From assembly GCF_000172155.1 (NCBI RefSeq), contig NZ_ABIZ01000001.1, positions 1,612,001 through 1,676,000 on the forward strand: a DNA stretch of 64,000 nt. Direction: 5' to 3'. The notes below the pieces were generated by a model. The model worked only from the letters and a program-made list of their open reading frames with translations. It had not been told where the DNA came from and made no database searches. A program made the translations under genes and the position numbers. Positions 30,096 to 46,309 of this stretch are shown piece after piece. The stretch's first letter is position 1. The number at the start of each line of letters is the position of its first letter. Source of the stretch: Verrucomicrobium spinosum DSM 4136 = JCM 18804 (GTDB taxonomy: Bacteria > Verrucomicrobiota > Verrucomicrobiia > Verrucomicrobiales > Verrucomicrobiaceae).

Positions 30096-30503
30096 ATGCC
30101 TCCCTTCCGTCCCAGCATCCGGCATCTTTATCTGCTCGCGCTGTTTCAGCTCGTAGGTGGGCCGCTGGTCATACTGGCGGTGGTCTTCTTCAGCAGGATG
30201 GTGGTTCACCAGACTGCGGAGCACGGCCTGACCGTCGGGGTGGTGAAGGCCAGCCAGAGCGCGGAGTGGCAAAAGGTGGCCTCTGCCTTGAGCGGTGCCT
30301 CCTACGGCCAGCTCCCCTCTGGGAAGAAAGATCCCGTGCCCGTGGTCAAAGATCCCGGTGGCAAGCTGCTCGGGCTCCTGTGGGTGGGCGTCACGCTCCC
30401 TGAGGATCCGCCTATGCCCTGCGACGGCCCCCACCTCTGGGTGCGCCCCCTGATCTCGGCCTGGCCTCATGCGCCGCCCCTGCCACCGCCACGATGCGCG
30501 TGA
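30096..30503 (+). CDS. small exported protein, Cys-less paralogue of the HPCxMC family
   Basis: A 135-residue protein with an N-terminal hydrophobic segment (LYLLALFQLVGGPLVILAVVFF). Its first 60 residues follow the same pattern as the products of 33689, 45325 and 45905 (hydrophobic start, LVGG, then a helix and an RGL/HGL-V-V-A segment). At the position of the FDGxHPCxMC motif, however, it reads SQSAEWQKVA, with no Cys or His. Like its relatives it ends in a proline-rich tail (PPLPPPRCA) and precedes a TonB-dependent receptor, here by 266 bp. Divergent from uvrC. Probably a membrane-anchored periplasmic protein whose metal site was lost or never gained. Function unknown. Confidence 0.65.
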   Translation: MPPFRPSIRHLYLLALFQLVGGPLVILAVVFFSRMVVHQTAEHGLTVGVVKASQSAEWQKVASALSGASYGQLPSGKKDPVPVVKDPGGKLLGLLWVGVTLPEDPPMPCDGPHLWVRPLISAWPHAPPLPPPRCA

Positions 30504-30769
30504 CATTCCCCGCCGGTGAACCGTCGGTGATCGGTGCTTTTTTGCTGAATGCCACCTCCTTCTGCGGAGGGGCTGGAAGAGTGCGTGACAGTGCCCTGCC
30601 CTCGTGAAAGGGCGGGTTCTACGCCCCCCCCATGGCAGTGAAGCGCCCTGCTGACTGACGGCGCATTGGAATCTCGTTCCCCGCCCTGGCCTCGCCTTTG
30701 TGCAGGCAGACCCTCTCGCGACCGATGACCGGGCACACGCGCCCGGACAACGCATCCACTCATTCTCCC

Positions 30770-32932
30770 ATGTCACTTTCCATCCATTCTCGATTTGTTA
30801 TCGCATCATCCCTGGCAGTGGCCATCGCGGCCCCCTTGGCAGGACAGGAAGCCCCCACCGAACTCGACGCCGTCACGGTGGTCGGCAAAGCGGAAGATCT
30901 CCTGGGGGCCGCGCCAGCGGCTTCTGAAGGTCGTGCCAGTTCAGAAGATCTGCTGAGTCGCCCGATCCTGCGCCGGGGCGAGATTCTGGAGACCATACCC
31001 GGCGTCATCATCACCCAGCATGCTGGTGGCGGGAAGGCCAACCAGTATTTCCTGCGCGGCTACAATCTGGACCACGGCACAGACTTCGCCACCAGTCTGG
31101 ATGGGATGCCGCTGAACATGCGCACTCATGCCCATGGCCAGGGTTATACGGATCTCAACGGCGTGATTCCGGAGCTGGTGGAGCGTCTGGACTATGTGAA
31201 GGGTACCTACACCGCCGCCAACGGAGATCTCTCCACCGCGGGCGGTGCGAACTTCCTCCTCTTCAAACATCTGGAACGCAACCAGGCCACCTTTGAGATT
31301 GGGGAGGACAACTACTACCGCGGCCTCATTGCCGGCTCCATCCGCCTGGATACACCTGTGGCTCCGGCGGATGGTGGGGTGGTGAACGCCAAGAATGCCG
31401 GGAAAAACCCGCAGCCCGTGGCTCCGGTGGACCCCGACGTGACGGAGAGCCTGACGTATGCACTGGAGTACAACACCTATGATGGCCCCTGGGTGCTCCC
31501 GGAGGACTTTGAGCGCTGGAACGGGCTGCTGCGTTATTTCAAAGGTGATGAAGACAACTGGTTCACCGCCACGCTCATGGGCTACCACGGTGAGTGGCGC
31601 TCCAGTGACCAGATCCCCCAGAGGGCCGTGAAGGACGGCCGGATTGACCGGCTTGGCACTGTGGATCCGACGACGGGTGGACACTCCCAGCGCTACAGTT
31701 TGAATCTGGCCTTCCAGACGACGGAGGGCGATGTCGTCACCACCGGGAATGTGTACGGCATCCACTATGATCTGGACCTGTACTCGAACTTTACTTATTT
31801 CCTCGACTATCCGGATCGCGGGGATCAGTTCCAGCAGAAGGAAGAGCGGTGGATCATCGGCGGCAATCTGGCCCGCACTTGGAAGAACCAGGAGTTCTTT
31901 GGCACTCCGGCGGACTATACGCTTGGCTTCCAGACGCGGCATGATCTGATCGACCCCATCGGCCTCTATCGCACGGAGGCGCGCCGGCGATTTGCCACGG
32001 TGCGGGAGGACGAGGTGTATGAGAGCAGCTACAGCGTGTACGCAGACAGCACCGCCCGCTGGACGGACTGGTTCCGCACGAACATCGGCGTGCGCGGGGA
32101 TGTGTTCTACTTCGACACCTCACAGAGCACCCTGGCGGCCAACGAAGGCTCTGAGTGGGACGGCATCGTCAGCCCGAAATTCAGCGCCATCTTCGGCCCG
32201 TGGCAGGAGACGGAGCTCTATCTCAACTACGGCATGGGCTTCCACAGCAACGATGCGCGTGGGGTGAACACGGTGGTGGATCCCAACAGTGGGGATCGCG
32301 TGAACAAGGTGGATCCGCTGGTCCGTACGATGGGGGGAGAGATCGGCGTGCGCACCCAGGTGGTGCCGCACCTCACCAGCACGCTGGCCCTCTTCTGGCT
32401 GGAGAGCGATAGCGAGCTCGTGTACATTGGCGATGCCGGTGCCAATGAGGCGGGTCCCGGGTCCCGGCGGTATGGCATTGAGTTTGCCAACTACTGGCGT
32501 CCGGTGCGCTGGTTCAGTCTGGATGCGGAGATCGCGATCACCCACGCACGCTTCACAGACGCTGGTGATGAAGACCACATCCCGGGGAGCATTCCCTTCA
32601 TGTTCAGCGGCGGGATGACGCTCGGCGCGCATGCGGAAGACGAAGGTTTCTTCGCCACCCTGCGGGCACGGGCCTTTGACCGCCGTCCCCTCATTGAGGA
32701 CAACAGCGTGAAAGGCAAGTCCAGCTTCTTGGTGAATGCCGGGGTGGGTTATCGCAAGGCCAACTGGGAGGCGGCGGTGGAGTGTCTCAACCTCTTCGAC
32801 CGGGAGGACAATGACATCGAGTACTCCTACACAAGCCGTCTGCGGAACGAGGGGCCGGAAGGCTATGATGACGTGCACCTGCACCCTACGGAGCCCAGGA
32901 CGTTTCGGTTGAGGGTGACGTATCGGTTCTAG
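30770..32932 (+). CDS. TonB-dependent outer-membrane receptor
   Basis: A 720-residue receptor with a signal peptide (MSLSIHSRFVIASSLAVAIAAPLAGQ). The plug domain contains SRPILRRGEILETIPGVIITQHAGGGKANQYFLRGYNLDHGTDFA and GGANFLLF, and the beta-barrel ends in FRLRVTYRF with a terminal Phe. The plug begins with a TonB-box-like ELDAVTVVGKAE. HAGGGKANQYFLRGYNLDHGTDFA and MPLNMRTHAHGQGYTDLNG resemble receptors often annotated as copper or other-metal transporters rather than siderophore receptors; this is a weak inference. The His/Met content of the plug loop (MPLNMRTHAHGQG) would suit a soft metal. Follows the Cys-less small paralogue. Confidence 0.92.
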   Translation: MSLSIHSRFVIASSLAVAIAAPLAGQEAPTELDAVTVVGKAEDLLGAAPAASEGRASSEDLLSRPILRRGEILETIPGVIITQHAGGGKANQYFLRGYNLDHGTDFATSLDGMPLNMRTHAHGQGYTDLNGVIPELVERLDYVKGTYTAANGDLSTAGGANFLLFKHLERNQATFEIGEDNYYRGLIAGSIRLDTPVAPADGGVVNAKNAGKNPQPVAPVDPDVTESLTYALEYNTYDGPWVLPEDFERWNGLLRYFKGDEDNWFTATLMGYHGEWRSSDQIPQRAVKDGRIDRLGTVDPTTGGHSQRYSLNLAFQTTEGDVVTTGNVYGIHYDLDLYSNFTYFLDYPDRGDQFQQKEERWIIGGNLARTWKNQEFFGTPADYTLGFQTRHDLIDPIGLYRTEARRRFATVREDEVYESSYSVYADSTARWTDWFRTNIGVRGDVFYFDTSQSTLAANEGSEWDGIVSPKFSAIFGPWQETELYLNYGMGFHSNDARGVNTVVDPNSGDRVNKVDPLVRTMGGEIGVRTQVVPHLTSTLALFWLESDSELVYIGDAGANEAGPGSRRYGIEFANYWRPVRWFSLDAEIAITHARFTDAGDEDHIPGSIPFMFSGGMTLGAHAEDEGFFATLRARAFDRRPLIEDNSVKGKSSFLVNAGVGYRKANWEAAVECLNLFDREDNDIEYSYTSRLRNEGPEGYDDVHLHPTEPRTFRLRVTYRF

Positions 32933-33009
32933 GAGTTGGTGAGAGGGAGGCTTGAAATGGCAAACTTCAAACTTCAACGATCAAACCACAAGGTGGCATG
33001 GCCGCAGGG

Positions 33010-33390
33010 TAAAGGAGGCGGGGTCTCCGGCCCCGCGGTCTGTGGGGTGGGCGGAGCGGGGGAGCGGATCAAGGGACGCTTGGTGTGTGAGCGGGGCTGG
33101 GAACCCCCGCCTCCTGTACCCACGAACAAGCGACGAGGTGACTTGGCCGCGGGTTAAAGGAGGCGGGGTCTCCGGCCCCGCGGTCTGTGGTGTGGGCGGA
33201 GCGGGGGGGGGGATCGTGGGACGTTTGGTGCGTGAGCGGGGCTGGGAACCCCCGCCTCCTTTACTTACGATCAAACCACAAGGTGGCATGGCCGCGGAAT
33301 ACAGGAGGCGGGGTCTCCGGCCCCGCGGTCTGTTGGGTGAGCGGAGCGGGAAGGGGATCAAGGGACGCTTGGTGAGTGAGCCGGTCAGAA
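33010..33390. repeat. three units of the ggaggcggggtctccggccc palindrome family
   Basis: The palindrome ggaggcggggtctccggccc, extended by cgcgg, appears near 33012, 33157 and 33303 (about 146-bp period). Between copies lies a facing element, gcggggctgggaacccccgc with a cctcct end, so the layout is again alternating inverted pairs. Spacers include aaccacaaggtggcatggcc. Confidence 0.85.
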
Positions 33391-33647
33391 CAACCGGACT
33401 ACGCCCGTAGCGACCTCACATGGTCAGAACTCAAGTCTTGAGTCTTTCGTCTTCCAGTCTTGTGTCTCCCGCGCAGCGGGTCGAGAGCGGCAAAATGTCG
33501 CACCGCACTACCGCACTACCGTATTTCGGTGTCACCTGCACTACAGCCTGACAGACAACCTTCGTCACCTGTTATGCCATTAGTAGTTGAATAGAACCCG
33601 CCTCTGTCCATGGCGTTCCTGGAAGGCATGGAGCGTCAAACTTCCGG

Positions 33648-33653: not shown

Positions 33654-33688
33654 GAGGAAGTGCCTCACATGATGGTGCATAACTTGTC

Positions 33689-34093
33689 GTGAAGCGTTCT
33701 CTGCAATCATTGCTGTGCCTGATTGCCGCCCTGCATCTTGTGGGCGGGCATTGGGGCGTCATGCAGATGATTGCCTGGGCGCAGATGTTGCGGGACTACT
33801 CGCAAGACCGCGGTGTGGCGGTGGCGGTGATGGATACCTTTAATGGAGAACATCCCTGCCCCATGTGTGACAAGATCAAGGCGGGCCGGGCTCAGGAGGA
33901 GCAGCAGAAGCCCGCTTCATTGCCCAAGGCAGACCAGCCGGCGATCTGGCTGGTTGCCTCCAAAGTGGTACAGGATCTGCCCGCGTCTCCGTGGGCCACA
34001 AGCAAGGTGCAGGCGGCATTCGCCGAACCACGGCAGCTTGCTGCACAGTATGATGCCGGGCCGGCCACGCCGCCGCCACGAGCTGGCATCTAA
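33689..34093 (+). CDS. small exported HPCxMC-motif protein (HPCPMC)
   Basis: A 134-residue protein with a GTG start, chosen because it aligns VKR/MKR with its paralogues. A hydrophobic signal (SLLCLIAALHLVGGHWGVMQMIAW) is followed by YSQDRGVAVAVMDTFNGEHPCPMCDKI, a charged helix and a Pro/Ala-rich tail ending PPPRAGI. The HPCPMC motif offers His, two Cys and a nearby Met as ligands and is the family signature. A copper-binding periplasmic role is inferred from the downstream cytochrome/SCO1 cluster and from similarity in plan to DUF2946-like proteins; it is not proven. No Shine-Dalgarno is seen. A short upstream frame starting at 33669 ends in TGA overlapping the GTG. Confidence 0.78.
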   Translation: MKRSLQSLLCLIAALHLVGGHWGVMQMIAWAQMLRDYSQDRGVAVAVMDTFNGEHPCPMCDKIKAGRAQEEQQKPASLPKADQPAIWLVASKVVQDLPASPWATSKVQAAFAEPRQLAAQYDAGPATPPPRAGI

Positions 34094-34461
34094 CCTCCTG
34101 TTTTGCAGATCCTTGCGAGGCCTCAGCCGGTAACCTCAGATGGTGTGACCGCGCCTTCTGCCACGGGCAGAGGGGTGCAACATGGCCATGTGGCGGTCGT
34201 TGGTGACCTGGTCCCTGCATGAAGAGTGATGGTTCACGCCATTCCTTTCATGCCGCCATCGCGGTGGACTGCCAGACAGGATAGAAACGCCCTCTTAACG
34301 CGCCCGATCATTTCTCCGGTCTGCCTCTGTGTGTGGCCGGAGGGGCGTGCGTGCTCAGTTACCCTGGACCGCCCGGGCCTCTTCCGCCCCAGGCCTCATC
34401 ATGTCCATGGCCGATTGCTGCCTTCCTTGTTACATCCAACCCCTCATGCCCTTAGTTTGAT
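34094..34461. other. intergenic leader before the cytochrome cluster
   Basis: A 368-bp gap without a gene. It has small hairpins such as tctgccacgggcaga but no recognisable riboswitch. The end, cttagtttgatatgtattgc, is locally AT-rich and may include the promoter of the cytochrome c gene. Confidence 0.5.
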
Positions 34462-34950
34462 ATGTATTGCAAAAACTTTCTTGTTCCTTGTTTGACCGCC
34501 CTTTCCCTTGGTCTCGCCACTGCTGCCTCACACGCCCAGGATGCGGCGCTGGAGGCTCAGAAACAGGCTGGCCAGCAAGTGTACTCCATGGTCTGCTTTG
34601 CCTGCCACCAGCCCACAGGAGCAGGGATTCCCGGCATGTTCCCGCCGCTTGCGGGCTCGGACTGGGTCTCGGCAAAGAAACCGGACCGCCTGATCCGCAT
34701 GGTCATTCACGGCATCACCGGGCCCATCTCCGTGAACGGCAAGCCCTTCCCCACCCCCGCACCCATCATGCCTCCGCAGGGGACTCTGAGTGATGAACAG
34801 ATCGCCAATGTCCTCACCTACGTGCGCACGGCCTTTGGCAACACTGCTTCCGCAGTCTCGGCTGCGGAGGTGAAAGCCGTTCGCACGGCGGAAGCTGCGC
34901 GAACCTCACCCTGGACCGAGGCGGAACTTCTGAAGATTGCAGTGGAGTAA
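34462..34950 (+). CDS. c-type cytochrome, single heme
   Basis: A 162-residue exported class I cytochrome c. The signal peptide (NFLVPCLTALSLGLATAASHA) precedes a single CFACH heme site (about residue 45). The domain continues GIPGMFPPLAGSDWV, GITGPISVNGKPF and the axial-Met region PAPIMPPQGTLSDEQIANVLTYVRTAFGN. This pattern is common in small electron-transfer cytochromes linked to copper nitrite reductases and dehydrogenases. It heads a run of eight plus-strand genes to 41563 and is separated from the next by 4 bp, so co-transcription is likely. Confidence 0.9.
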   Translation: MYCKNFLVPCLTALSLGLATAASHAQDAALEAQKQAGQQVYSMVCFACHQPTGAGIPGMFPPLAGSDWVSAKKPDRLIRMVIHGITGPISVNGKPFPTPAPIMPPQGTLSDEQIANVLTYVRTAFGNTASAVSAAEVKAVRTAEAARTSPWTEAELLKIAVE

Positions 34951-34954
34951 CGTC

Positions 34955-35686
34955 ATGAGCACAAACGAAAAACCAGAAGGGGAGGCCGGAGTGGGAAAAG
35001 GAGGGTGGATTCATCTGCTCACTCTCTTTTTTGCCTCTGTCGTGGCGCTGTTCGCGGCCAGCGCCGGGCTGGTGCTTGCTGCCGGCGGTCTGCAGCACAG
35101 CCTTGGCCTGGCCGGGGCTTCGCAGCCACCGCCACCGGCGAAAGGCACTTCTGACCAAGGACGGGCCGGCGCGCCCACGCTCGTGTCTGAAGCTCCAGCC
35201 GCCCAGGCGGGCGGCCCCGGCGCGGCAGCAGCAGGGGTGAATCCGCAGGTCATGGCGGAGGGGCAGAAGATCTATGCAGGCTCCTGCATGGCATGCCACC
35301 AGGCGACTGGCCAGGGCGTCCCCAACGTCTTTCCTCCTCTGGTCAACAGCGACTGGGTTTGCAACGAGGACGCAGACTGCGCCATCGCCGTCGTGCTGTG
35401 TGGATTGCAGGGGCCCATTGAAGTGAACGGCAAGCCGTTTTCCTCACCCATGATCATGCCTCCGCATGGGGCGATGCTGGATGATGCGAAGATCGCCGCG
35501 GTTCTTACCTATGTGCGCAACGCCTGGGGCCATGCCGGCTCTGAGGTGCCCGCCACCCGCGTGGCGGCGCTGCGTGCCAAGTTCAAGGAACGCACCGCTC
35601 TCTGGACCCAGGCAGAGGTGCATGGCGCCGTGCATGGCGCTGCCTCCCAGCCCCACCCTGCCAAAGCCGATGGGCCGGTCAAGTAA
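34955..35686 (+). CDS. membrane-anchored c-type cytochrome
   Basis: A 243-residue protein with one N-terminal membrane helix (IHLLTLFFASVVALFAASAGLVLAAGG), an Ala/Pro-rich linker, and a cytochrome c domain with the heme site CMACH. FPPLVNSDWV, GLQGPIEVNGKPF and SPMIMPPHGAMLDDAKIAAVLTYVRNAWGH mirror the preceding cytochrome. Two extra Cys (CNEDADC) flank an insertion in the heme pocket loop. The ATG at 34955 follows the previous stop by 4 bp. The tail is His/Ala-rich. The gene overlaps the next by 17 bp, indicating tight translational coupling. Confidence 0.9.
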   Translation: MSTNEKPEGEAGVGKGGWIHLLTLFFASVVALFAASAGLVLAAGGLQHSLGLAGASQPPPPAKGTSDQGRAGAPTLVSEAPAAQAGGPGAAAAGVNPQVMAEGQKIYAGSCMACHQATGQGVPNVFPPLVNSDWVCNEDADCAIAVVLCGLQGPIEVNGKPFSSPMIMPPHGAMLDDAKIAAVLTYVRNAWGHAGSEVPATRVAALRAKFKERTALWTQAEVHGAVHGAASQPHPAKADGPVK

Positions 35687-36221
35687 CCTCAAGGTTCCAC
35701 CGGGATCCTTCTCACGCGCCTGGTTCCTGGTGGGCGCGGCGGGGGCGCTGCTGTTTGCCCATGCCCCGCTGCCGGAGGATCAGGACGGCAGGCCCGGGGC
35801 CCTGCACCCGCTGGTGCCCAGCCTCGTCTATGATCAAGCGTGCTGCCAGTGCCACGGGGCCGAGGGGCGCGGCGTGCCGCCGTGGGTGGGGCCCTTTCCG
35901 GCGCGCCGTATGAGGGAAGCCAACTCCACCGGGTGGAGCATCGCGGTGGTGTTGCAGGGGTGCAGCCTTGCGAATCCCCAGGCCCCGGGAGGGGCCCGGG
36001 TCATGCCCGCCATGGGGGCGTGGTTGAATGATGCTCAGATTGCCGAGGCGCTCACTTTTGTGCGCGTCGGCCTCTGCGGTGCCGGCTCCGAGGTGTCCCC
36101 GGACGCCGTTGCCTCCTGGCGCGGGCGCGCCGGGGGGCGGCGGGAGCCGTGGACACGTGATGCATTTCATCGAACCTTTGGGGGTGCGGCAGCCACCCTT
36201 GCCCAGGACGACCACCCATGA
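35670..36221 (+). CDS. c-type cytochrome, diverged third copy
   Basis: A 183-residue protein. An N-terminal hydrophobic stretch (AWFLVGAAGALLFAHAPL) anchors or exports it, followed by the heme site CCQCH. The distal region is VVLQGCSLANPQAPGGARVMPAMGAWLNDAQIAEALTFVRVGLCGAGSEV, homologous to the two previous cytochromes but more diverged, with ARVMPAMG supplying the Met ligand. The ATG at 35670 overlaps the preceding gene by 17 bp. It overlaps the SCO1 gene by ATGA, so the four genes are translationally coupled. Confidence 0.85.
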   Translation: MGRSSNLKVPPGSFSRAWFLVGAAGALLFAHAPLPEDQDGRPGALHPLVPSLVYDQACCQCHGAEGRGVPPWVGPFPARRMREANSTGWSIAVVLQGCSLANPQAPGGARVMPAMGAWLNDAQIAEALTFVRVGLCGAGSEVSPDAVASWRGRAGGRREPWTRDAFHRTFGGAAATLAQDDHP

Positions 36222-36928
36222 ACAAGCCTGAATTGTCCCCCACCACCGGTCCGCAGAGCGTTCCCTTCCGCCCATGGAAGTTCTGGACCGCCATCGTCTG
36301 CCTTTGCGCCCTGCTGGCAGGCATCTTCTGGTGGATGAATCGTACGCTGCAGCGCGGAACCCGTGCTTCCGAGCCTCTGCCCCGCTATCTGCGGGTGGCG
36401 GAGACCTTGCAGGCGGTCGAGCGTGATGGCAGGGAGGTGAGCTCCGCCTCGCTGGACGGCAAGGTGCGCCTGTTTGCCTGCCTCTACACCGTGTGTCCGC
36501 ATGGGTGTGCCGCCGTGATGGGGCAGATGAAAAAACTGCATGAGGCTCACGGCAACCGCCCGGACTTCCAACAGGTCTCCATCACTGTGGTGCCGGATCG
36601 TGACACCCCCGAGCTGCTCACCGCCTTTGCTGAAGGCATGGGGGCCGGGCAGTCCTCGTCGTGGTGGTTCCTCACCGGGCGCCAGTCTGCGCTCTGGGAT
36701 TTCATGAGCAAGGGGCTGGGCATGGCTCCGCCGGTGCCCATCCCGCCGGATGAACGGCTCAACCCGCTGGACTTGTATGCGCATGACCTGCGCATCGTGC
36801 TGGTGGATCGCAAAGGTTGGGTTCGCGGTTATTACGAAGTCTTCCATCCCCAGCCGGAGATAGCCTCCCTCATCTGTGAGCGTCTGGCGGAGGATGTGAG
36901 CCGCCTCCTGGACGACCCAGACCTTTAA
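36218..36928 (+). CDS. SCO1/SenC/PrrC-family protein
   Basis: A 236-residue membrane-anchored thioredoxin-fold protein. One N-terminal helix (FWTAIVCLCALLAGIFWW) is followed by the SCO domain with the copper-binding CxxxC in YTVCPHGCAAVMGQM and the distal His in LDLYAHDLRIVLVD. SCO proteins deliver copper to the CuA site of cytochrome oxidase or act as periplasmic thiol/copper sensors. No cox genes are present here, so a partner among the neighbouring cytochromes is inferred. Its start overlaps the previous stop (ATGA). Confidence 0.92.
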   Translation: MNKPELSPTTGPQSVPFRPWKFWTAIVCLCALLAGIFWWMNRTLQRGTRASEPLPRYLRVAETLQAVERDGREVSSASLDGKVRLFACLYTVCPHGCAAVMGQMKKLHEAHGNRPDFQQVSITVVPDRDTPELLTAFAEGMGAGQSSSWWFLTGRQSALWDFMSKGLGMAPPVPIPPDERLNPLDLYAHDLRIVLVDRKGWVRGYYEVFHPQPEIASLICERLAEDVSRLLDDPDL

Positions 36929-36986: not shown

Positions 36987-37355
36987 ATGAACACCCAAAC
37001 CAAACTCACCCTCTCCCGCCCGTTGGCGTCCACAAGCCATTGGCTCCTCGCCGCATGGATGATCGTCCTGGCCCTGCTGCCGCAGGGTGGGCTGCGCGCC
37101 GGGGAGAAGCCTGTTTACATCTATGAAGGCCGGATCTCCGGTGTCTATTGCAGCGCCTGCTCTGCCAAGGTCAAGGCGGCGCTGGGCAGGCTGGATGGAG
37201 TGTCCAAGGTCAAGATCACCGCCGCAGAAGAGCTGGGCGTGCAGGCGTTGCAGGTGCTCTCCACCTCCCCTGGACTTACGAAGGAGGCTGCCATCGCCGC
37301 CCTGGGGACGTCGGCCAAGGAGTTCACCATCCTGCAGTTCAGCCGCAAGCCGTGA
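36987..37355 (+). CDS. exported HMA-like metal-binding protein
   Basis: A 122-residue protein with a signal peptide (LLAAWMIVLALLPQGGLRAG) followed by a ferredoxin-like heavy-metal-associated domain. The loop GVYCSACSAKVKAAL carries the CxxC and the following basic helix, and LDGVSKVKITAAEE is the matching second strand. Such domains bind Cu(I) or Hg(II) and hand them on. The canonical GMTCxxC is altered to GVYCSAC. It sits 58 bp after SCO1 and just before the Met/His-rich barrel, reinforcing a copper theme. Confidence 0.82.
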   Translation: MNTQTKLTLSRPLASTSHWLLAAWMIVLALLPQGGLRAGEKPVYIYEGRISGVYCSACSAKVKAALGRLDGVSKVKITAAEELGVQALQVLSTSPGLTKEAAIAALGTSAKEFTILQFSRKP

Positions 37356-38771: not shown

Positions 38772-40196
38772 ATGGACTTTCCACCCTACTATCTGGATCA
38801 CGTGGCGGGGGGGCGATTGATCATCGGCCTGATCGCCTCGCTTCATGTTCTCATCAACCACCCGCTTGCCGTGGGGGCATATCCCATCCTCACCTGGATG
38901 GAGTGGTGGGCCCACAAACACCAGCGGCCGGATATTGACCGCCTGGCCTACCGCGTCACCTCAGTCGTGTTTATTGTGACGACGACGGTGGGCGCGCTGA
39001 CGGGCGTGGGCATCTGGGTGTCCACCTCCTTGTTTGCCCCGTTTGCGATTGGCAGCCTGCTCAGAGTGTTCTTTTGGGGATGGTTTGCGGAGTGGCTGGT
39101 CTTCATCAGCGAGGTGGGTCTCATCATGTGGTGGTTCCTGAGCTGGAAGCAGGCAAACACCCCTGAGAAGAAGCGCCGGCACATCAAGATCGGTGTCGCG
39201 CTGAGTGTCATGTCCTGGTTCACCATGGCTCTTATTGTGGCGGTTCTGGGCTTCATGATGAAGCCCGGGGAGTGGAGCCAGACCAGGGCGTTCCTGGACG
39301 CGATGGTGAACCCTCTCTACCTGCCGCAGCTTGGGTTCCGCACCTTCTTTGCGCTCATGACCGGGGCGGTGTTTGTGTGGTTTTCCTCCTTCTTCTTCAC
39401 GAAGGGGCAGCGGGAGCTGCGCACCTGGCTGGTGTACCGCCTTTCCCACTTCACCATGGTGGGGCTCCTGATGACGTTGCTCTTTGGCCTGTGGTACTGG
39501 CAGAGTGTGCCGGATGTGATGAAGGCCAACAGTGCGGTGGCCCTGCTCTCCCAGCAGTTCATGAGCTGGCATGACCAGTTTTCCGCCCTGCTTGGGTGGA
39601 CGCTTGTTTCGTTCCTGGTGGTGGCTGTCGCAGGCCTGTCGTTCTCAGAGATGGTACCCCGGTGGGCGCTGCTCCTGCCCAGTTTCATGGGCATCTGGAT
39701 GCTCGGTCATTTCGAGCGGGCGCGTGAGTTCATGCGCAAGCCGTGGGTGATCGGGGAATATCTTTACTCCAACGGGGTGCGAAAGGATGAGCTGGCATTT
39801 CTCCAGCACGAAGGAATGCTGAAGCATGCCACCTATGTGGCCCACCGGACCGTGACGCCGGAGAACAAGGTGGAGGCGGGCCAGGATGTCTTCATGATCG
39901 CCTGCTCCCGCTGCCACAGCACCACGGGGCTCAATGGCGTGCTGGAAAAATTTGCCATCATGTACGGGGCTGACAAGCCATGGGACGACGGAGCGATGAA
40001 GGCCTTCATGGCCAACATGCACCAGTCCCGCACGTTCATGCCGCCTTTCCCCGGCACTCCTGAGGAAGCGGAGGCGCTGGTCGCCTATCTGCAAAAACTG
40101 CGTGCGGAACCCCGGTCCCTCGAAGGCGCGCAGAGCGCCGGCATCAGGCTGCCCCAGCCGGACGCCGGGACGCGTGTAGCCCAGCAGAAACTCTGA
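38772..40196 (+). CDS. CydA-like membrane protein with C-terminal cytochrome c domain
   Basis: A 474-residue protein with about nine hydrophobic helices and then a CSRCH heme site (residue 378) in a short cytochrome c domain. RLIIGLIASLHVLINHPL, VGALTGVGIWVSTSLFAPFAIGSLLRVFFWGWFAEW and IKIGVALSVMSWFTMALIVAVLGFMMKPGEW parallel the helices of cytochrome bd subunit I (compare the TGxP, EGLLAFF and NGWMQ regions). The quinol-binding Q-loop of true CydA is not evident. Divergent cytochrome bd relatives bearing heme c have been described as OR-C or OR-N groups; membership is inferred. GGATGG provides a weak ribosome site. The gene is paired with 40220-41563 at 23 bp. Confidence 0.75.
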   Translation: MDFPPYYLDHVAGGRLIIGLIASLHVLINHPLAVGAYPILTWMEWWAHKHQRPDIDRLAYRVTSVVFIVTTTVGALTGVGIWVSTSLFAPFAIGSLLRVFFWGWFAEWLVFISEVGLIMWWFLSWKQANTPEKKRRHIKIGVALSVMSWFTMALIVAVLGFMMKPGEWSQTRAFLDAMVNPLYLPQLGFRTFFALMTGAVFVWFSSFFFTKGQRELRTWLVYRLSHFTMVGLLMTLLFGLWYWQSVPDVMKANSAVALLSQQFMSWHDQFSALLGWTLVSFLVVAVAGLSFSEMVPRWALLLPSFMGIWMLGHFERAREFMRKPWVIGEYLYSNGVRKDELAFLQHEGMLKHATYVAHRTVTPENKVEAGQDVFMIACSRCHSTTGLNGVLEKFAIMYGADKPWDDGAMKAFMANMHQSRTFMPPFPGTPEEAEALVAYLQKLRAEPRSLEGAQSAGIRLPQPDAGTRVAQQKL

Positions 40197-40219: not shown

Positions 40220-41563
40220 ATGACCCTGTCTTATACCGCTGTTGCCCAGTTCCTTGCAGCCGTGCCCGTGCCCCGGGACCTGCCTCTGCCACTGCCCGTG
40301 CCTGAGGCGGTGCTGAAGGGGCTGCTGGTGCTCTTCTTCTTGTTGCACATCTTTTTTGTGAACCTCATGGTGGGTGGTTCCTTCATGGTGGTGTTTTTCG
40401 AGTATCTCGGTCTGCGCCGCAAGAAGTGGGACGGCCTGGCCTATGAGGTGGCCAAAACGGTGACGGTGAACAAGAGCCTCGCCGTGGTGCTGGGCATTGG
40501 CCCGTTGCTCTGCATCAACCTGGTGTACACGGTGCAGTGGTACGGGGCCAATGCGCTGACCGGACATGCCTGGCTTCTCATTGTGCCCACGGTCATCAGC
40601 GCCTTCCTGCTGGCTTATTTGCACAAGTACACCTGGCATGCCTGGGATCACGGATGGAGGAAGAAGCTGCACCTCGCGGTGGGCGTGCTCATGGCCCTGC
40701 ACTTCTTGTTCATCCCGCTCATCTTCCTGGCCAACGTCAACCTCATGCTCTTCCCCAGTGAGTGGGAGAAAGTGCGCGGCTTCTTCTCGAGCCTGCAGAT
40801 CGGGAATGTCTTTCCCCGCTATCTGCACTTCCTGCTCGCCTCTGTGGCGCTGGCTTCCCTGTTTATGGTGGGGTGGTTTGGCAGGGCTGGTGCGGCAGGT
40901 GCTCTGCCTCAGGGATTCAGCCGGGATGACCTGCGGCGCACGTTCTACCGGGCCGCGCTGGTGCCGACGGCCGCGCAGTTCCTCGCGGGTCCCTTGTTGC
41001 TCTTCACCCTGCCTCCGGTGGGCATCACCCACACGCTCTACGGGGTCATTGGTGCAGGGGCACTGCTGGGGCTGGTGGTGCTGCATCAACTGGCAAAGGA
41101 GGTGGGGGCTCCGGACGGCCAGGTGGGCCGGCGCTATGTGGGCATCTGCATCTTGTTCAGCTTTGTGGTGCTGGGCATGGGCAGTGGGCGGCACATCTAC
41201 CGGGAGGCCGCCCTGGCCTCCCACAAGGCGGAAGTAAAACATCGAACCCAGGAGTACGAGACCGCCCTGGCCGCCTTCAATGCCCAGCAGGCTGCCGGCG
41301 CAGGCCCGGCGAAGGCGCAGACGGGCGAGCAGCTCTTTGCCTCTTGTGCGGCATGTCACGCGCCTGCCATCCGTCTGGTGGGGCCGCCGCTGGCAGAGAT
41401 CGCCCAGATCTACGCTGGCAATCCTGCCGGCATCGTTGCCTGGGCCAAGGCGCCGGGCAAGAAACGCCCAGACTACCCGCCCATGCCGCCCTTTGCGCAT
41501 CTCTCGGATGCAGATCTCACCAAGATCGCTGAATTCATGCTCACCCAGGCGGTTTCAAAGTAA
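40220..41563 (+). CDS. second CydA-like membrane protein with C-terminal cytochrome c domain
   Basis: A 447-residue protein with about nine hydrophobic helices and a C-terminal CAACH heme site (residue 376). The first helix (LLVLFFLLHIFFVNLMVGGSFMVVFF) and KKLHLAVGVLMALHFLFIPLIFLANVNLMLFPSEW share the plan of the preceding protein, so the two look like diverged paralogues forming a heterodimer. The cytochrome c domain (GEQLFASCAACHAPAIRLVGPPL... MPPFAHLSDADLTKIAEFML) has a Met ligand. The pair resembles the CydA-CydA' arrangement seen in some divergent bd-type enzymes. Substrate (oxygen, NO or another acceptor) unknown. Confidence 0.72.
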   Translation: MTLSYTAVAQFLAAVPVPRDLPLPLPVPEAVLKGLLVLFFLLHIFFVNLMVGGSFMVVFFEYLGLRRKKWDGLAYEVAKTVTVNKSLAVVLGIGPLLCINLVYTVQWYGANALTGHAWLLIVPTVISAFLLAYLHKYTWHAWDHGWRKKLHLAVGVLMALHFLFIPLIFLANVNLMLFPSEWEKVRGFFSSLQIGNVFPRYLHFLLASVALASLFMVGWFGRAGAAGALPQGFSRDDLRRTFYRAALVPTAAQFLAGPLLLFTLPPVGITHTLYGVIGAGALLGLVVLHQLAKEVGAPDGQVGRRYVGICILFSFVVLGMGSGRHIYREAALASHKAEVKHRTQEYETALAAFNAQQAAGAGPAKAQTGEQLFASCAACHAPAIRLVGPPLAEIAQIYAGNPAGIVAWAKAPGKKRPDYPPMPPFAHLSDADLTKIAEFMLTQAVSK

Positions 41564-41671: not shown

Positions 41672-42964
41672 TCATGCGCTCACGGCCCGGGCGTTGCGCC
41701 GGGTGAACCCTCTCTCCGCCAGGGCAAAGGCGAGTACGGTGATGCCGAACATGGGCATGAAGAGTGCCGCTGTGGCGAGGCTGAATTTCACCACTCCCGG
41801 GAGGCGCGGTGTGCGCACCCATTGCGGCAGGTCCAGTCTCCCTTGGGGACGGCGTCGCCACCACATCATGGCGGCAGCGCCAGAGATGAGCATGAAGAGC
41901 AGGGCGAGCGTGGTGGAGAGGATCTGGTTGAGACGGCCGAAGAGCTTGCCTTCATGCATGTCGATGCCCATGGACACAGCTTTCTGCGTGGCGGGCATCG
42001 TGTTCCATCCAGCCTGGGCCAGCACCTCTGCGGTGTAAGTGTTGAGCTGGTAGTGGGTCTCCAGTGCCGTGTCTCCATTCCGGTTGCGCACGTGTACCGT
42101 GCCGGAAGGGCCGGGCGGCAGACTGATCTCCAGGGGACCGGGAAGGTTCTGCGCGAGGGCAAACTGCACAAAGGCATCCAGCGGCAGCGGCCGGGCGTCC
42201 GGGGTGGGGGGGAGGCTCTCGTGACCGGCGTTGTCCAGCATGCAGTGGGGGTACTCCTGTCCTGTTGCTTCCTGAATCCCGGTGAAGAGCTTGCCGCCCC
42301 AGAAGGCCGTCCACGGCAGGCCTGTGAGGAGATAGAGGGCCAGAATGGCGGAAAGGTAGAAGCCACCCACGGCGTGAAGGTCCCGCCAGCGCTGGCGTCC
42401 CAGGCCGCTCAGGCGGGGCAGAAAGGTGCCCCACACGCTCCACTGGCGACCGCGGGGCCACCAGAGGTACACGCCAGTGAAGCAGAGGATGATGCCCCAG
42501 CAGGCCAGCAGTTCGAGGAGCCAGCTCCCATAAGGCTCGGCGAAGGTGAGGCCGTGCAGGGAGATGGCGGCAAAGCTGAGGCGCGTCCACTCATCGATGG
42601 TGGTGATGACTTCACCCGTGTAGGGGTTCACCAACACGGAGGTGGGATTGCTCCATTCCCCGAACCAGAACTGGGAGGCATGGTGGGGGTCGCCGTCCAC
42701 TTTCACAGAGCCCAGAGGCTTCCCCTGGCAGGCAGCGCGGGCGGCCCCCAGCTGCTGCTCATAGGACACCCTGGTGGCCTGCGGCTTCAGGGCGCGGTAC
42801 TCCGGGTGCAGCCAGTCTTCCAGTTCATGCTGCCACACATAGGGGAGCCCGGTGAGTGACATGAAGAACAGGAAGGGGATGACAAACAACCCTGCATAAC
42901 CATGCCACCGCCAGAGCCAGCGGTGGAGCGTGGACTGATCCGGCGATGGCATGGGCTTCTTCAT
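41672..42964 (-). CDS. PepSY-associated transmembrane protein
   Basis: A 430-residue inner-membrane protein with four main helices. The first block, LHRWLWRWHGYAGLFVIPFLFFMSLTGLPYVW, is the PepSY_TM hallmark. A periplasmic PepSY-like stretch (SVLVNPYTGEVITTIDEWTRL) follows, then WLLELLACWGIILCFTGVYLWWPRG and DLHAVGGFYLSAILALYLLTGLPW. Conserved His residues in helices may ligate heme, as proposed for FsrB/PiuB-type siderophore reductases. It begins 5 bp after the TonB-dependent siderophore-receptor gene, the usual partnership, suggesting reduction or release of imported metal chelates. Confidence 0.88.
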   Translation of the reverse strand: MKKPMPSPDQSTLHRWLWRWHGYAGLFVIPFLFFMSLTGLPYVWQHELEDWLHPEYRALKPQATRVSYEQQLGAARAACQGKPLGSVKVDGDPHHASQFWFGEWSNPTSVLVNPYTGEVITTIDEWTRLSFAAISLHGLTFAEPYGSWLLELLACWGIILCFTGVYLWWPRGRQWSVWGTFLPRLSGLGRQRWRDLHAVGGFYLSAILALYLLTGLPWTAFWGGKLFTGIQEATGQEYPHCMLDNAGHESLPPTPDARPLPLDAFVQFALAQNLPGPLEISLPPGPSGTVHVRNRNGDTALETHYQLNTYTAEVLAQAGWNTMPATQKAVSMGIDMHEGKLFGRLNQILSTTLALLFMLISGAAAMMWWRRRPQGRLDLPQWVRTPRLPGVVKFSLATAALFMPMFGITVLAFALAERGFTRRNARAVSA

Positions 42965-42969
42965 GAATC

Positions 42970-45078
42970 CTAGAACTTGTAGGTGATGCTGGCCTGCACG
43001 CTGAAGGGCTGGCTGGGATCCAGGGTGTAGTTGAACGCGCCCGCCTCGCCGCCCGTGTAGTAGTCCCGGTCAAACACATTCAGGAAGTTGACCTGGAACT
43101 TCCAGTTGTCCCGCTCGTAGAACACCGTGGCATCGGTGCGCCAGTAGGCGGGCAGTTCATAGGTGTTGGGCAGATTCGCCTCCCGGTCGCCTGTGTAGTA
43201 GAGCCCGGCTCCGAGGCCAAAGCCCTTGAGAGCGCCGCTCTGGATCTGGTAGGTGGTCCAGATGCTGCCGCTGTGCAGGGGAACGTTGGAGAGAGGCTGG
43301 CCCACCGGCAGCACCGTGTCACTGACGACCTCGGTATCGGTGTAGGCATAGCTGGCGATCATCTTCCAGCCAGGAGCGATTTCACCGGCCAGATCCAGCT
43401 CAATGCCGCGGCTGCGGCGTTCACCCGTCTGAATCAGATTCTCCGGGTCAGTGGGGTCAGACACCAGGACCCCCTCACGCGTCAGGTCATAGACCGCCAG
43501 ATTGGCGCTGAGACGGTCCTTGATGAGGTCCTGCTTGATGCCCACCTCAAACTGCTCTCCCTTCTCTGCATCATAGATGGTGTTGCTGGAGCTGTGGTTG
43601 ATGTTCGGGATGTAGCTCTTGCCGTATGAGAAGTAGAGCGAGGTCGCATCCACCGGCTGCCAGACCAGCCCTGCACGGCTTGAGAAGCGGGCTTCGTCAG
43701 CTTTCTGCACGGTTTCTTTGTTCCATGTCTGGGTTTCATTGAAGAACCAGTCTTCACGTGCCCCAAGCAGGATCTTCCACTGCGGCGTGAGCTCAATGAG
43801 GTCTGACAGGTAGATGCCGAAGGTCTGGGCCTGGGCTCTTCTCACCCCACCGCTGGTGCTGGAGTAGCCGTAGTCAGAGATGCGCCCGGGATGGCTCAGG
43901 CTCATGTTGAAGGTGTAGCGGTCATTGGGGCTGCCGCCATCGTTGAGATAGCTGTACTCAGTGCCAACCAGCAGGCTGTGCTTGATCGCACCGGTCTCAA
44001 ACGAGCCCAAAAGTTCCGCCTGGACCGAGAAGTCCGTGGCTTCCTCACTCACATCCAGATAAGAGGTGAAGGGAAGAATGTCCCCTCCCTCATACAGATA
44101 GTTGTCCGGGAAGGTCTGGGTGGAATCCTGGGTGCCGTAAGTGTAGTGGCCGCCCAGGCGCAGCTTCCAGTTGTCGTTGAACTCATGCTCAAGGATCAGC
44201 GATGCGGAGTAGGTCTCGTTCACGCCATAGTCGTGCGGCAGACCATAGTAGCCCTTGCGCGGGAAGCGGGTGTAGCCGGGGAGGTTCGGCACGCCGAAGT
44301 CGAATGCCTCACGCTCCAGGCGATTGTACTCCAGCAGCACCAGCAGGGTGGTGTCGTCTGTGATGTCCCACTTGATGGCGGGGGCGATGGAGAATGCGTC
44401 GTAGCCGGAGCGGTCGCGGTAGCCGTCGTTGTGCTCATACGCGCTGTTGAGCCGCAGACTGACATCGTCTCCCAGGGGCTGGTTCCAATCCAGCGTGGGG
44501 CGGAGCAGGCCGTAGCTGCCGGAGGTGATGCTGAACTCACCTGCCTGAACGTCGAATGGCCGCTTGGACACGGTATTGATGTAGCCGCCCACGGAGCCCA
44601 CGCCGCCGTAGAGGGCGCCTGCCGGTCCCTTGAGCACTTCCACACGCTCGATCGCCTGGACATCCCGGTAGGTGAAATAGCCGTAGTTGCGGAAGCCGTC
44701 CCGCAGGGAATTGCTGGTGGTAAAGCCGCGGATGTTGAAGAACGTCGCGCCGTTGCCGCCATAGCTGGACTCGGCACGCACGCCGCTTACGTTTTCCACC
44801 ATCTGGGACACTCGGGTGACTCCTCGATCCTGAAGGATTTCCTTGGGCACCACCTGGACGGAGGCGGGCAGATCTTTGAGCGGGGTGTCTGTCTTGGTGG
44901 CTGAAGTGGCCTCCGCAGGAGCATAGGTGCGCTCCACGCTGGAGGCGGTAACCTCCACTGTGGGAAGCTGGGTGGCCTGATCCGGCGCGGCCTGGGAGCG
45001 GGCGGGTTGAGGGGTGAGCGCTGCCGCCAGGGCGGAAGCGGTGACGACGTTGGCAAAAAGGGAGTGTGAAGTTTTCAC
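42970..45078 (-). CDS. TonB-dependent siderophore-type receptor
   Basis: A 702-residue receptor of the FhuE/FpvA type. A signal peptide (SLFANVVTASALAAALTPQPARS) is followed by a plug with the TonB-box-like LPTVEVTASS, then SATKTDTPLKDLPASVQVVPKEIL and VENVSGVRAESSYGGNGATFFNIRGF. AIERVEVLKGPAGALYGGVGSVGGYINTVSKRP is classic. The barrel ends FSVQASITYKF. It probably imports a ferric or other metal chelate. Upstream on the same strand, 246 bp away, is a small HPCSMC protein gene; 5 bp downstream is the PepSY gene. All three may form one transcription unit. Confidence 0.95.
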   Translation of the reverse strand: MKTSHSLFANVVTASALAAALTPQPARSQAAPDQATQLPTVEVTASSVERTYAPAEATSATKTDTPLKDLPASVQVVPKEILQDRGVTRVSQMVENVSGVRAESSYGGNGATFFNIRGFTTSNSLRDGFRNYGYFTYRDVQAIERVEVLKGPAGALYGGVGSVGGYINTVSKRPFDVQAGEFSITSGSYGLLRPTLDWNQPLGDDVSLRLNSAYEHNDGYRDRSGYDAFSIAPAIKWDITDDTTLLVLLEYNRLEREAFDFGVPNLPGYTRFPRKGYYGLPHDYGVNETYSASLILEHEFNDNWKLRLGGHYTYGTQDSTQTFPDNYLYEGGDILPFTSYLDVSEEATDFSVQAELLGSFETGAIKHSLLVGTEYSYLNDGGSPNDRYTFNMSLSHPGRISDYGYSSTSGGVRRAQAQTFGIYLSDLIELTPQWKILLGAREDWFFNETQTWNKETVQKADEARFSSRAGLVWQPVDATSLYFSYGKSYIPNINHSSSNTIYDAEKGEQFEVGIKQDLIKDRLSANLAVYDLTREGVLVSDPTDPENLIQTGERRSRGIELDLAGEIAPGWKMIASYAYTDTEVVSDTVLPVGQPLSNVPLHSGSIWTTYQIQSGALKGFGLGAGLYYTGDREANLPNTYELPAYWRTDATVFYERDNWKFQVNFLNVFDRDYYTGGEAGAFNYTLDPSQPFSVQASITYKF

Positions 45079-45324: not shown

Positions 45325-45744
45325 TCAAGCCACGGACATGAAGTGACCATCACGCCGCGGGGGCGGGGTGGGCGGCCGCGTCATCCACTGGGTCTCACAC
45401 CCAGGGCGGCCATCATAGGCTGGCGTGGCGGCATCACCGGCCGGGGGGCTCTGTGGCACCTCCGTATGGACCACTGCGGCCAGCATCTGGCAGGGCTTTT
45501 CCACCTTGTACTGGCGGAGCGGATCGCTCTGCGCGTCCGTCTCACGGCGTTCCTGCAGATCCAGGCACATGGAGCACGGGTGCTCACCGTCGAAGGTCTC
45601 CTTCACTGCCAGCACCAGCCCTTTCTCCCGGGAATAGTCCTGTAGCATCCGGCTCCAGGCCACCAACTGCAACCATCCCCAAGATCCACCCGTCAGGTGC
45701 AGAGCGGTCAGGATGCAAATGGCGGTAGTGAGCCAGCGTTTCAC
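45325..45744 (-). CDS. small exported HPCxMC-motif protein (HPCSMC)
   Basis: A 139-residue paralogue of the products of 33689 and 45905. GTG at 45744 is chosen because VKRWLTTAICILTALHLTGGSWGWLQLVAW then aligns with the MKR... starts of the others. The family motif reads KETFDGEHPCSMCLDL. The remainder is charged, with an extra CQM and CETQW and the tail PPTPPPRRDGHFMSVA. No Shine-Dalgarno is visible. TTGACG 39 bases upstream plus a tctaga hexamer suggests a promoter placing the RNA start at or near GTG. Divergent from the 45905 gene. Confidence 0.78.
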   Translation of the reverse strand: MKRWLTTAICILTALHLTGGSWGWLQLVAWSRMLQDYSREKGLVLAVKETFDGEHPCSMCLDLQERRETDAQSDPLRQYKVEKPCQMLAAVVHTEVPQSPPAGDAATPAYDGRPGCETQWMTRPPTPPPRRDGHFMSVA

Positions 45745-45754
45745 AGAGGCGCTA

Positions 45755-45783
45755 TCTAGAACACGCCCAATGCATCCCGTCAA
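45755..45783 (-). promoter_or_regulatory. candidate promoter of the HPCSMC gene
   Basis: On the minus strand TTGACG (45783-45778) and TCTAGA (45760-45755) are spaced by 17 bases and end 10 bases before the GTG start, implying a very short or absent leader. Confidence 0.5.
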
Positions 45784-45866
45784 CCCGCTCTTCTAAAGGG
45801 AAAGGGAGGGGGCGCGTCACTATTTCCCCAAAAAAGGTTCTCCCAGAAGTCACCTCCTAACTCTCG

Positions 45867-45896
45867 TTGACATTGTCCTTCATCGCCACTTACTCT
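45867..45896 (+). promoter_or_regulatory. candidate promoter of the HPCAMC gene
   Basis: TTGACA (45867-45872) and TACTCT (45891-45896) are spaced by 18 bases. The expected RNA start falls within one or two bases of the TTG start codon at 45905. Confidence 0.5.
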
Positions 45897-45904
45897 CCCA
45901 CCGC

Positions 45905-46309
45905 TTGAAACGCTGCCTCCATACGCTGGTGTGCCTCATTGCCGCTCTCCATCTGGTGGGCGGACATTGGGGTGCGCTTCAGATGGTGGCCTGGGCGAAG
46001 ATGTTGCAGACTTACTCTGAGGACAGAGGGCTGGTGGTGGCGATCAAGGACACCTTCGATGGCGGGCACCCCTGCGCCATGTGCAAAAAGATTTCGGCAG
46101 AGAAGGAAGGGGAGTCTCAGAAGAAGCAACCTGCTTCCAATATGGAGCAGGGCGCTGTCGCCAAATGGCTGGGAGTCGCGTCTGCCGCCGTGTTGCCGGG
46201 CCCTGCCTGGTGCCATGGCAGCGCTGTCTCGCAACATCCCGCCTGCTCGCCGCACTATTACCGCTGGGACATTCTGCCCCCAGTGCCTCCGCCCAAAATC
46301 GCGGCCTGA
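45905..46309 (+). CDS. small exported HPCxMC-motif protein (HPCAMC)
   Basis: A 134-residue paralogue beginning at TTG, selected because MKRCLHTLVCLIAALHLVGGHWG matches MKRSLQSLLCLIAALHLVGGHWG of the 33689 product almost residue for residue. The motif reads KDTFDGGHPCAMCKKI. Two further Cys (PAWCHGSAVSQHPACSPHYY) occur near the C-terminus, where a second HPxC-like element gives extra potential ligands. The tail is PPVPPPKIAA. It is divergent from its paralogue 45744 and precedes the TonB receptor at 46700 by 390 bp. Probable periplasmic metal-binding role, inferred from context. Confidence 0.8.
   Translation: MKRCLHTLVCLIAALHLVGGHWGALQMVAWAKMLQTYSEDRGLVVAIKDTFDGGHPCAMCKKISAEKEGESQKKQPASNMEQGAVAKWLGVASAAVLPGPAWCHGSAVSQHPACSPHYYRWDILPPVPPPKIAA

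Follow-up and report, generated by a model that had tools for sequence, protein, structure and literature searches.

Putative nascent-chain metal-sensing leader proteins ahead of TonB receptor and cytochrome genes in Verrucomicrobium spinosum and other Verrucomicrobiota

Four small open reading frames at a receptor and cytochrome locus

We describe four small open reading frames (ORFs) in a stretch of 64,000 nucleotides (nt) from Verrucomicrobium spinosum DSM 4136 (contig NZ_ABIZ01000001.1, positions 1,612,001 to 1,676,000 of the forward strand), which is hereafter called the window. These ORFs lie ahead of three genes for TonB-dependent receptors and of a cytochrome/SCO1 operon, and they probably encode regulatory leader proteins that would act as metal sensors of the stalling type and not as effectors. 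Three of them carry an HPCxMC motif and are assigned to class I, while the fourth is without this Cys/His motif and is assigned to class II. The genome is 8.22 Mb in size and present in a single contig, its nearest named relatives being Verrucomicrobium sp. BvORR106 and BvORR034. The candidate leader ORFs are as follows:

33689-34093, + strand: class I leader ORF; GTG start, 134 amino acids (aa), HPCPMC, tail PATPPPRAGI
45325-45744, - strand: class I leader ORF; 139 aa, HPCSMC, tail PPTPPPRRDGHFMSVA
45905-46309, + strand: class I leader ORF; 134 aa, HPCAMC, tail PPVPPPKIAA
30096-30503, + strand: class II leader ORF, without the Cys/His motif; 135 aa, within a longer frame

The start of the 45325 leader was set by homology (its open frame begins at 45783), and the 45325 and 45905 leaders are divergently oriented. 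As claimed in a preliminary description of this DNA, the ORFs at 33689, 45325 and 45905 are similar copies: they have in common MKR starts, LHLxGGxWG, TF(D/N)GxHPCxMC and P..PPP(R/K), and 39 columns are invariant in their alignment. Identity to the 33689 protein is 40% and 50% for the other two Cys-bearing copies and 21% for the 30096 copy, which is made up of the membrane segment RHLYLLALFQLVGGPLV, a linker and the tail APPLPPPRCA and is without HPCxxC. Between orthologues most changes fall on the third codon position (26/23/62 at positions 1/2/3 for 33689 against its relative L008, and 14/5/34 for 30096 against L230), and the leader ORFs are therefore coding. With the starts of the next genes re-read from the ORF list, the distance from leader stop to next start is 246 nt (45325 to 45078), 266 nt (30503 to 30770), 368 nt (34093 to 34462) and 390 nt (46309 to 46700), in agreement with the separation of about 250-390 bp first estimated for the cytochrome/SCO1 operon and the three TonB receptors. 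A fourth Cys-type copy is present elsewhere in the same genome (3967999-3968403 of the genome), and the receptor downstream of it is 46% identical to the receptor at 46700. Leader proteins of the window type gave no match of useful significance in Pfam or NCBIfam, and a plasmid search with the 33689 protein returned chance-level matches alone (E about 0.5).

Conservation of the membrane segment, the cysteine motif and the proline tail

A profile search for the motif over genomes, together with a check of the neighbouring genes, had been suggested at the outset. A three-sequence profile matched in 64 of 68 genomes of the bacterial family (E<=1e-3) and a 72-sequence profile in 97 of 387 genomes sampled from the phylum. 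Of the 384 genomes in a sample of the class, 233 matched an N-terminal profile of 60 positions, with the tail excluded. Neither the 72-sequence nor the N-terminal profile matched in genus g12 of the same order, whose listed genomes are 2.2-3.5 Mb in size. The family set was built from 60 stretches out of all that matched, seven named loci and the window, and comprises 93 distinct members; 80 phylum regions and 23 search loci gave 103 further members (phylum set), 196 in total. Seventy-two member rows were aligned (alignment A4). At two loci (L065:5663-6821 and L074:1555-5206) two or three leader ORFs follow each other, at a spacing of only about 380 nt in L065, which suggests serial switches.

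The order of parts in the members is a hydrophobic N-terminal segment, TF(D/N/S)GxHPCxxC, a linker and P-x-x-P-P-P-R. The N-terminal segment of 91 of the 93 family members, and of 75 of the 103 from the phylum set, reaches a 17-residue Kyte-Doolittle hydropathy of 1.6. CxxC is present in 91 of the 93 family members, the two exceptions being of class II; outside the family, the His-Pro ahead of the first Cys is variable (H-P in 29 of the 95 phylum members with a located motif). Conservation in A4, expressed as the mean fraction of the majority residue, is 0.82 for the sensor, 0.69 for the tail and 0.57 for the membrane segment but 0.29 for the 62-residue linker. Even so, the spacing is held: the proline run ends on average 65.8 residues (standard deviation, sd, 4.8) after the last Cys in the family and 65.5 (sd 3.2) in the phylum set. 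PP[RKQ] occurs within the last 14 residues in 89 of the 93 members of the family set and in 94 of the 103 of the phylum set, as compared to 8 of 508 controls, which are the remaining ORFs with a length of 150 aa or more in the same DNA stretches. Between the tail and the stop there are 2-11 residues in family members and 1-14 in those of the phylum set, mostly 2-6. The proline codons of the tail are variable among members, and therefore selection acts on the amino acids and not only on the RNA. Conservation concentrated in the membrane segment, in the Cys motif and in the ~10 residues closest to the stop is the pattern seen in nascent-chain leaders such as CutF and CruR.

Since the earlier members had been found with profiles that contain the tail, a search free of the tail was made. 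It provided a fresh set of 60 proteins, taken from the better-scoring matches of the N-terminal model in genomes previously unsearched. All 60 have at least three prolines within the last 14 residues (27 of 508 controls), 38 of them as PP[RKQ], and in 56 of 60 the last Cys is separated from the end of the proline run by 62.2 residues (sd 2.6). As regards independence, one protein (L282) is 99% identical to row L012 of the model, and the next-best identity to an earlier member is 66%. In some lineages the tail reads APPVPVPI instead of PPxPPPR (L122, L123, L287, L308, L310, L313, L340 and others).

A structure model of the 33689 protein has a mean predicted local distance difference test score (pLDDT) of 75.9 and a predicted template modelling score (pTM) of 0.42, with helices at residues 2-18, 20-40, 43-50 and 58-73. 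Residues 71-120 have an average pLDDT of 47-67 and almost no secondary structure, while the tail is at 76-81.

Genes next to the leaders

The genes and features around the window leaders are listed below.

30770-32932, + strand: TonB-dependent receptor, type R1; ATG start re-read at 30770 (frame 30698), TonB plug/barrel match
34462-34950, + strand: cytochrome c, first gene downstream of the 33689 leader; domain match
34937-35686, + strand: cytochrome c, second; domain match
36218-36928, + strand: SCO1/SenC; domain match (E 3.5e-15)
36987-37355, + strand: heavy-metal-associated (HMA) domain protein with CSAC; domain match
38784-40196, + strand: hydrophobic protein with C-terminal cytochrome c domain; domain match, start not fixed
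40220-41563, + strand: hydrophobic protein with C-terminal cytochrome c domain; domain match
41672-42964, - strand: PepSY_TM protein, downstream of receptor R2; domain match (E 1.4e-59)
42970-45078, - strand: TonB receptor, type R2, siderophore-type; TonB plug/barrel match
46314-46334, + strand: hairpin of 8 pairs directly 3' of the 45905 leader stop, within the stretch 46307-46426
46700-48880, + strand: TonB receptor, type R3, YncD/PqqU-like; ATG re-read at 46700 (frame 46541)

Matches of R3 in NCBIfam are below the cut-offs; its matches in the PDB are 6v81 (E 2e-37) and 9c4o (E 2.5e-37). The 45325 leader, R2 and the PepSY_TM protein stand in the same gene order as cruR-crtA-crpH of Bordetella pertussis (available text of PMC12914433 and PMC13038864), the likeness being one of order. 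Between R1 and the 33689 leader (32977-33411) a 145-nt unit is present in three head-to-tail copies (100, 88 and 65% identity).

The coupling to TonB receptors and to copper or cytochrome genes, first noticed in this window, recurs across genomes. Next genes were called by a simple longest-ORF rule and a few are leader ORFs themselves, and therefore the counts are approximate. Among 88 next genes of the family set (three of the 93 leaders had no usable next gene and two shared one) there are 41 with a TonB plug, 13 with cytochrome c and 3 with SCO1. In the phylum and fresh sets a same-strand ORF follows within 900 nt for 152 of 163 leaders at a median gap of 115.5 nt; the 150 next genes of this wider sample comprise 55 with a TonB plug, 19 Phenol_MetA_deg (which we take to be outer-membrane-barrel-like), 3 TonB_C, 1 NosL and 1 CusF, and many without any domain match. 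Where the next gene codes for 550 aa or more (45 cases), it lies at a median of 116 nt from the leader. Next genes of this length downstream of class I leaders in the family (n=42) are R3-like in 30, R2-like in 6 and neither in 6 cases, and none is R1-like. Some family next genes carry CxSCGxM just downstream of the export signal; among barrel-like proteins adjoining class I leaders this is seen in L068:4175-5209, L072:7993-9030 and L079:2114-3136, which are possible copper-binding porins.

Class II leaders and receptor R1

Relatives of the 30096 copy were found in 18 genomes, with an R1-type receptor downstream in each. Sixteen of these (14 plus G014 and G315) came from the genome-wide search, where a same-strand R1 is next in 16 of 16, and two more (G013, G020) from reading upstream of R1. 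Among 40 stretches upstream of R1-type or distant R1-like receptors, of which one is truncated by a contig end, 17 contain a class II leader. Class II is homologous to class I over the full length (hhalign probability 97.9, E 3.5e-13). CxxC is absent from 17 of 17 class II proteins, and these have no conserved Cys or His column (best His 8/17, best Cys 3/17). Invariant in class II are L11, L14, L16, Q18, G22 and P23, which belong to the membrane segment, K90 and W96, and residues of the tail; identity between species is 80-87%. The fourth copy was first taken as the same plan without the Cys/His; the plan stands, but the 30096 copy is not decayed and did not simply lose Cys/His: it belongs to a sister class, the cue of which is probably a different one.

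Nickel or cobalt is the likely, though weakly supported, theme of class II and R1, because HupE/UreJ follows R1 in three class II genomes (G061, G062 and G003) among 20 R1 loci. In a fourth class II genome (G017) a cobW GTPase lies on the opposite strand; both genes were picked by eye near R1 and then confirmed with Pfam. The only PDB match of R1 is the B12 receptor BtuB (E 3e-7, plug part), and for this reason cobalamin is a further candidate. R1 is thus a putative nickel/cobalt (or cobalamin) receptor. An Rfam scan for a nickel/cobalt or cobalamin riboswitch, which covered 20 of the 23 R1-type stretches without a class II leader, found none. R1-like receptors with 41-45% identity are also present on plasmids, of which 4 among 50 records were inspected, with incomplete gene tables. 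On a Methylomagnum plasmid the receptor is directly downstream of nikR, with siderophore receptor, PepSY and zinc ABC genes also near; on pHG1 of C. necator it lies 4.4 kb from hoxN, near the regulatory hydrogenase; in M. extorquens CM4 it is near cobalamin genes, but near iron ABC genes too; and on an Indioceanicola plasmid no neighbour of nickel, cobalt or cobalamin type is listed near it. HupE/UreJ and NikR are present in the V. spinosum genome, with no PxxPPPR leader seen in the surrounding stretches that were inspected. One locus of this genome (L354, 1962867-1963292 of the genome) has a HupE/UreJ_2 gene followed by an ExbB-like gene (by eye), possibly an inner-membrane partner of R1.

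RNA between the leader stop and the next gene

The 110 nt after the leader stop are more stably folded than their mononucleotide shuffles (92 members; mean z -1.81, 39% below -2) as compared to stretches 700 nt further on (mean z -0.34, 8% below -2). In a count taken without a control, C is more frequent than G in a region that starts about 150 nt ahead of the stop, with a peak near +180 in the family set. After the 45905 leader, z is -3.09 at 46307-46426 (none of 200 shuffles as stable) and -2.33 at 46547-46696.

Three hairpins between leader stop and next gene were followed in 17 aligned sequences, in which 91% of cells pair. Cells changed on both sides number 26 as compared to 8.4 in shuffles (none of 500 as high) and at most 9 when the hairpins are slid; pairs with both-side changes number 8 against 4.8 in shuffles (6 of 500 as high). 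In the predicted consensus of the 17 stretches, 7 of 26 pairs show both-side changes. Covarying hairpins are thus present after the stop in one subgroup. A terminator scan gave 20 sites where 11.1 (sd 3.7) are expected, some of them within coding sequence; two weak candidates (30522-30536 on the + strand and 45168-45156 on the - strand) lie between leader and receptor.

Comparison with CutF, CruR and other arrest peptides

Published systems are taken here from the available parts of the sources cited. CutF of Rhodobacter capsulatus is a nascent exported copper sensor (PMC9973294) which requires both its Cys motif and the C-terminal PEPEGPPPRL (PMC8456105); it is degraded rapidly after export and does not act in trans, and CutF-like proteins are mostly from Pseudomonadota and Bacteroidota (PMC9973294). 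CruR of B. pertussis needs both CxxC and RAPP, with 45 residues between them, and works through Rho termination (PMC9426467); it stalls in vitro (PMC12992588), structures for RAPP are published (PMC10951233), and the receptor-PepSY_TM operon with this leader is copper-repressed (PMC12914433).

Like CutF, the class I proteins are short leaders with a central Cys motif upstream of copper genes, with a proline tail that ends in PPPR near the stop and with RNA structure between leader and next gene. They differ in the motif (HPCxxC against CxxxC), in the spacing (about 65 residues against 43, C73 to P116 as counted from published positions) and in the genes downstream, which are mostly receptors where cutFOG has a multicopper oxidase. 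In length, proline tail and distance the four window proteins fit the published rule for CutF-like proteins (PMC9973294): all are below 150 aa (134, 139, 134 and 135) and have PP in the last 15 residues, and the next gene is within the distance allowed (246-390 nt). As to the signal peptide in this rule, hydropathy alone shows a hydrophobic N-terminal segment in the shares of family and phylum members given above. This rule is loose, and agreement with it is no proof of common descent.

With CruR the class I proteins share a CxxC together with a C-terminal arrest-like motif, the copper theme and a position ahead of a TonB receptor and PepSY_TM. Their tail is PxxPPPR and not RAPP, and their spacing is 65 and not 49 (C93 to P142, same count), so that it is 16-22 residues longer than in CutF and CruR; the CruR rule of 45 residues from CxxC to RAPP, within one or two, does not describe them (65.8 in the family, 65.5 in the phylum set). 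The tails of the 93 family members, as listed by type, are PxxPPP[RKQ] and variants, and RAPP or RGPP is not among them. Membership in DUF2946/CruR (PF11162) was considered and rejected: none of the 72 members in A4 matches it at E<=1, no match was found in the V. spinosum genome at E<=0.001, and hhalign against three DUF2946 proteins of the same phylum gave a probability of 0.5%. DUF2946 proteins with RGPP/RAPP tails are present in this phylum (L139, L140 and L142), one of them in a genome (G200) that has the new family as well.

RAPP/RGPP arrest peptides (PMC12992588) likewise combine a leader, an export signal and a C-terminal arrest upstream of TonB-related genes. That survey, in its available text, followed RAPP/RGPP and would therefore not list a family with PxxPPP[RKQ] or PVPI tails. 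Class II resembles the histidine-only CutF-like clusters 14 and 17, which lie ahead of HupE/UreJ (PMC9973294, available text), in preceding genes with a nickel/cobalt theme, but unlike them it has no conserved His or Cys column. "Verrucomicrob" is absent from the main texts of PMC9973294 and PMC9426467, the supplements of which may list members, and occurs once, in a figure legend, in the available text of PMC12992588, the only study found in a literature search on Verrucomicrobiota, copper and upstream open reading frames. A term search in the available text of the V. spinosum essential-gene paper (PMC12283558) gave no passage on leader genes. The component was initially called undescribed. 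This appears to hold for the family, which is not named in the papers found, although supplementary lists may hold members; it does not hold for the class of mechanism, which is published (PMC9426467 and PMC9973294, available text). The family is real and extends through the phylum; together with a sister class free of the metal motif, it probably represents metal-responsive leaders of the CutF and CruR type, outside DUF2946 and with a spacing and a tail of its own.

Discussion

A class I leader probably works while it is being made. The N-terminal hydrophobic segment of the short nascent chain would be inserted into the membrane and, without copper, the ribosome would pause at the proline tail; the parked ribosome may hold the downstream RNA, with its hairpins and C-rich stretch, in an 'on' state in which the receptor or cytochrome-assembly genes are expressed. 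Copper, the presumed metal, could bind at HPCxxC and pull or fold the chain so that the ribosome is freed, whereupon the RNA would either terminate transcription or hide the next start, and the released peptide is probably degraded. Arrest, metal binding and the direction of regulation are inferred for these leaders. By analogy with crtA, the receptor operons are expected to be on in starvation and off with copper; the sign of the switch for the cytochrome operon is less sure. In class II (30096) there is no metal motif, but membrane segment and tail are the same and would serve ahead of the probable nickel/cobalt receptor.

Several observations weigh against such a device. In the tail-free set, 22 tails are not PP[RKQ] (14 end in PVPI or PIPI, 4 in PPPL, 4 otherwise), and the CutF proline tail gave no strong stall in a LepB fusion (PMC9973294, available text). 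RNA folding after the other window leaders is weak (z -0.73 after 33689, -1.15 after 45325 and -1.08 after 30096). The 17 sequences used for covariation were the well-aligned ones of 27 stretches from one genus-level group, ten poorly aligned ones having been dropped, the stems of one hairpin were extended by hand from the same alignment, and further pair types in the three hairpins, one of five measures, are not in excess (17 against 15.7 in shuffles, 156 of 500 as high). No consistent terminator was found after the leaders, no Rfam family matched in a scan of the locus, and no Rho_N domain was found in the V. spinosum genome by a search limited to that domain, which does not exclude Rho. Among the 150 next genes of the wider sample, 13 are N_methyl (prepilin-type) and 4 sigma-70, which have no plain copper link. 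Finally, one class I leader (L048:6957-7873, genome G012) begins 26 nt after an ORF with the haem motif CKACH, itself downstream of another leader; it lies inside an operon and is not clearly the head of a transcript.

The switch might work with the opposite sign, as in CutF and not as in CruR, with copper strengthening the pause, a hairpin over the next start being opened and the genes turned on. We consider this somewhat unlikely. PxxPPPR is closer to the CutF tail than to RAPP, the covarying hairpins lie between the stop and the next gene, and cytochrome/SCO1 genes could well be wanted when copper is present. However, receptors, which presumably act in uptake, are the most frequent next genes (41 of 88 and 55 of 150), the B. 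pertussis operon of the same order is copper-repressed, as cited above, and a median of 116 nt to the large next genes (550 aa or more) is rather long for short-range unfolding as proposed for CutF.

It is improbable that we are dealing with stable proteins which are exported and act in trans, as copper chaperones or as periplasmic factors for metal handling. The hydrophobic N-terminal segment in 91 of 93 family members would suit export, HPCxxC is a plausible Cu(I) site and the neighbours are copper proteins. Yet the linker is barely conserved (0.29), and residues 71-120 of the model are poorly predicted (pLDDT 47-67), although helix 58-73 and the tail are better; the residues adjoining the stop, needless for a chaperone, are strongly kept, and the spacing is held across the drifting linker. 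There is one copy per operon, with three close copies at this locus, and CutF, which has the same plan, does not work in trans (PMC9973294, available text). Of the two roles first suggested for the proteins, periplasmic metal handling or sensing, we therefore favour sensing and set aside a stand-alone handling component, because the conserved parts are the membrane segment, the Cys motif and the ~10 residues that precede the stop. Still less credible is that 30096 is a decayed paralogue which lost its metal site: the missing Cys/His motif and 21% identity to the 33689 copy would fit, but 80-87% identity between species, dominant third-position changes (14/5/34), a kept tail, invariant residues of its own (L11 to W96) and relatives in 18 genomes, all ahead of R1, make it highly improbable.

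The ribosome covers about 30-40 residues of a nascent chain, which has to grow to about 65-70 before it extends across the translocon to the other side. If these lengths are correct, a spacing of 65 residues means that the family would read periplasmic copper. Tentatively, we propose for the stalling-type leaders a modular platform in Verrucomicrobiota in which an exchangeable sensor is placed between two constant parts, a membrane anchor and a proline brake: in class I a copper site ~65 residues from the brake would read periplasmic copper, and class II, without a metal site and ahead of a nickel/cobalt receptor, may be ligand-free or may read a non-thiol, non-imidazole cue.

These leaders would extend nascent-chain metal sensing to a phylum for which the papers found report none, with an arrest-like tail that differs. 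With the conserved 65-residue ruler, insertions and deletions can test directly whether sensing takes place in the cytoplasm or in the periplasm, and the APPVPVPI lineages offer a ready-made comparison for finding out which tails stall. A TonB receptor, probably for nickel/cobalt, is marked, together with a leader class of its own. The family also carries a warning: a small 'exported metal protein' encoded ahead of a TonB receptor can turn out to be a leader that is active only during its synthesis. For Verrucomicrobiota, it may provide a regulatory handle on copper uptake and cytochrome assembly.

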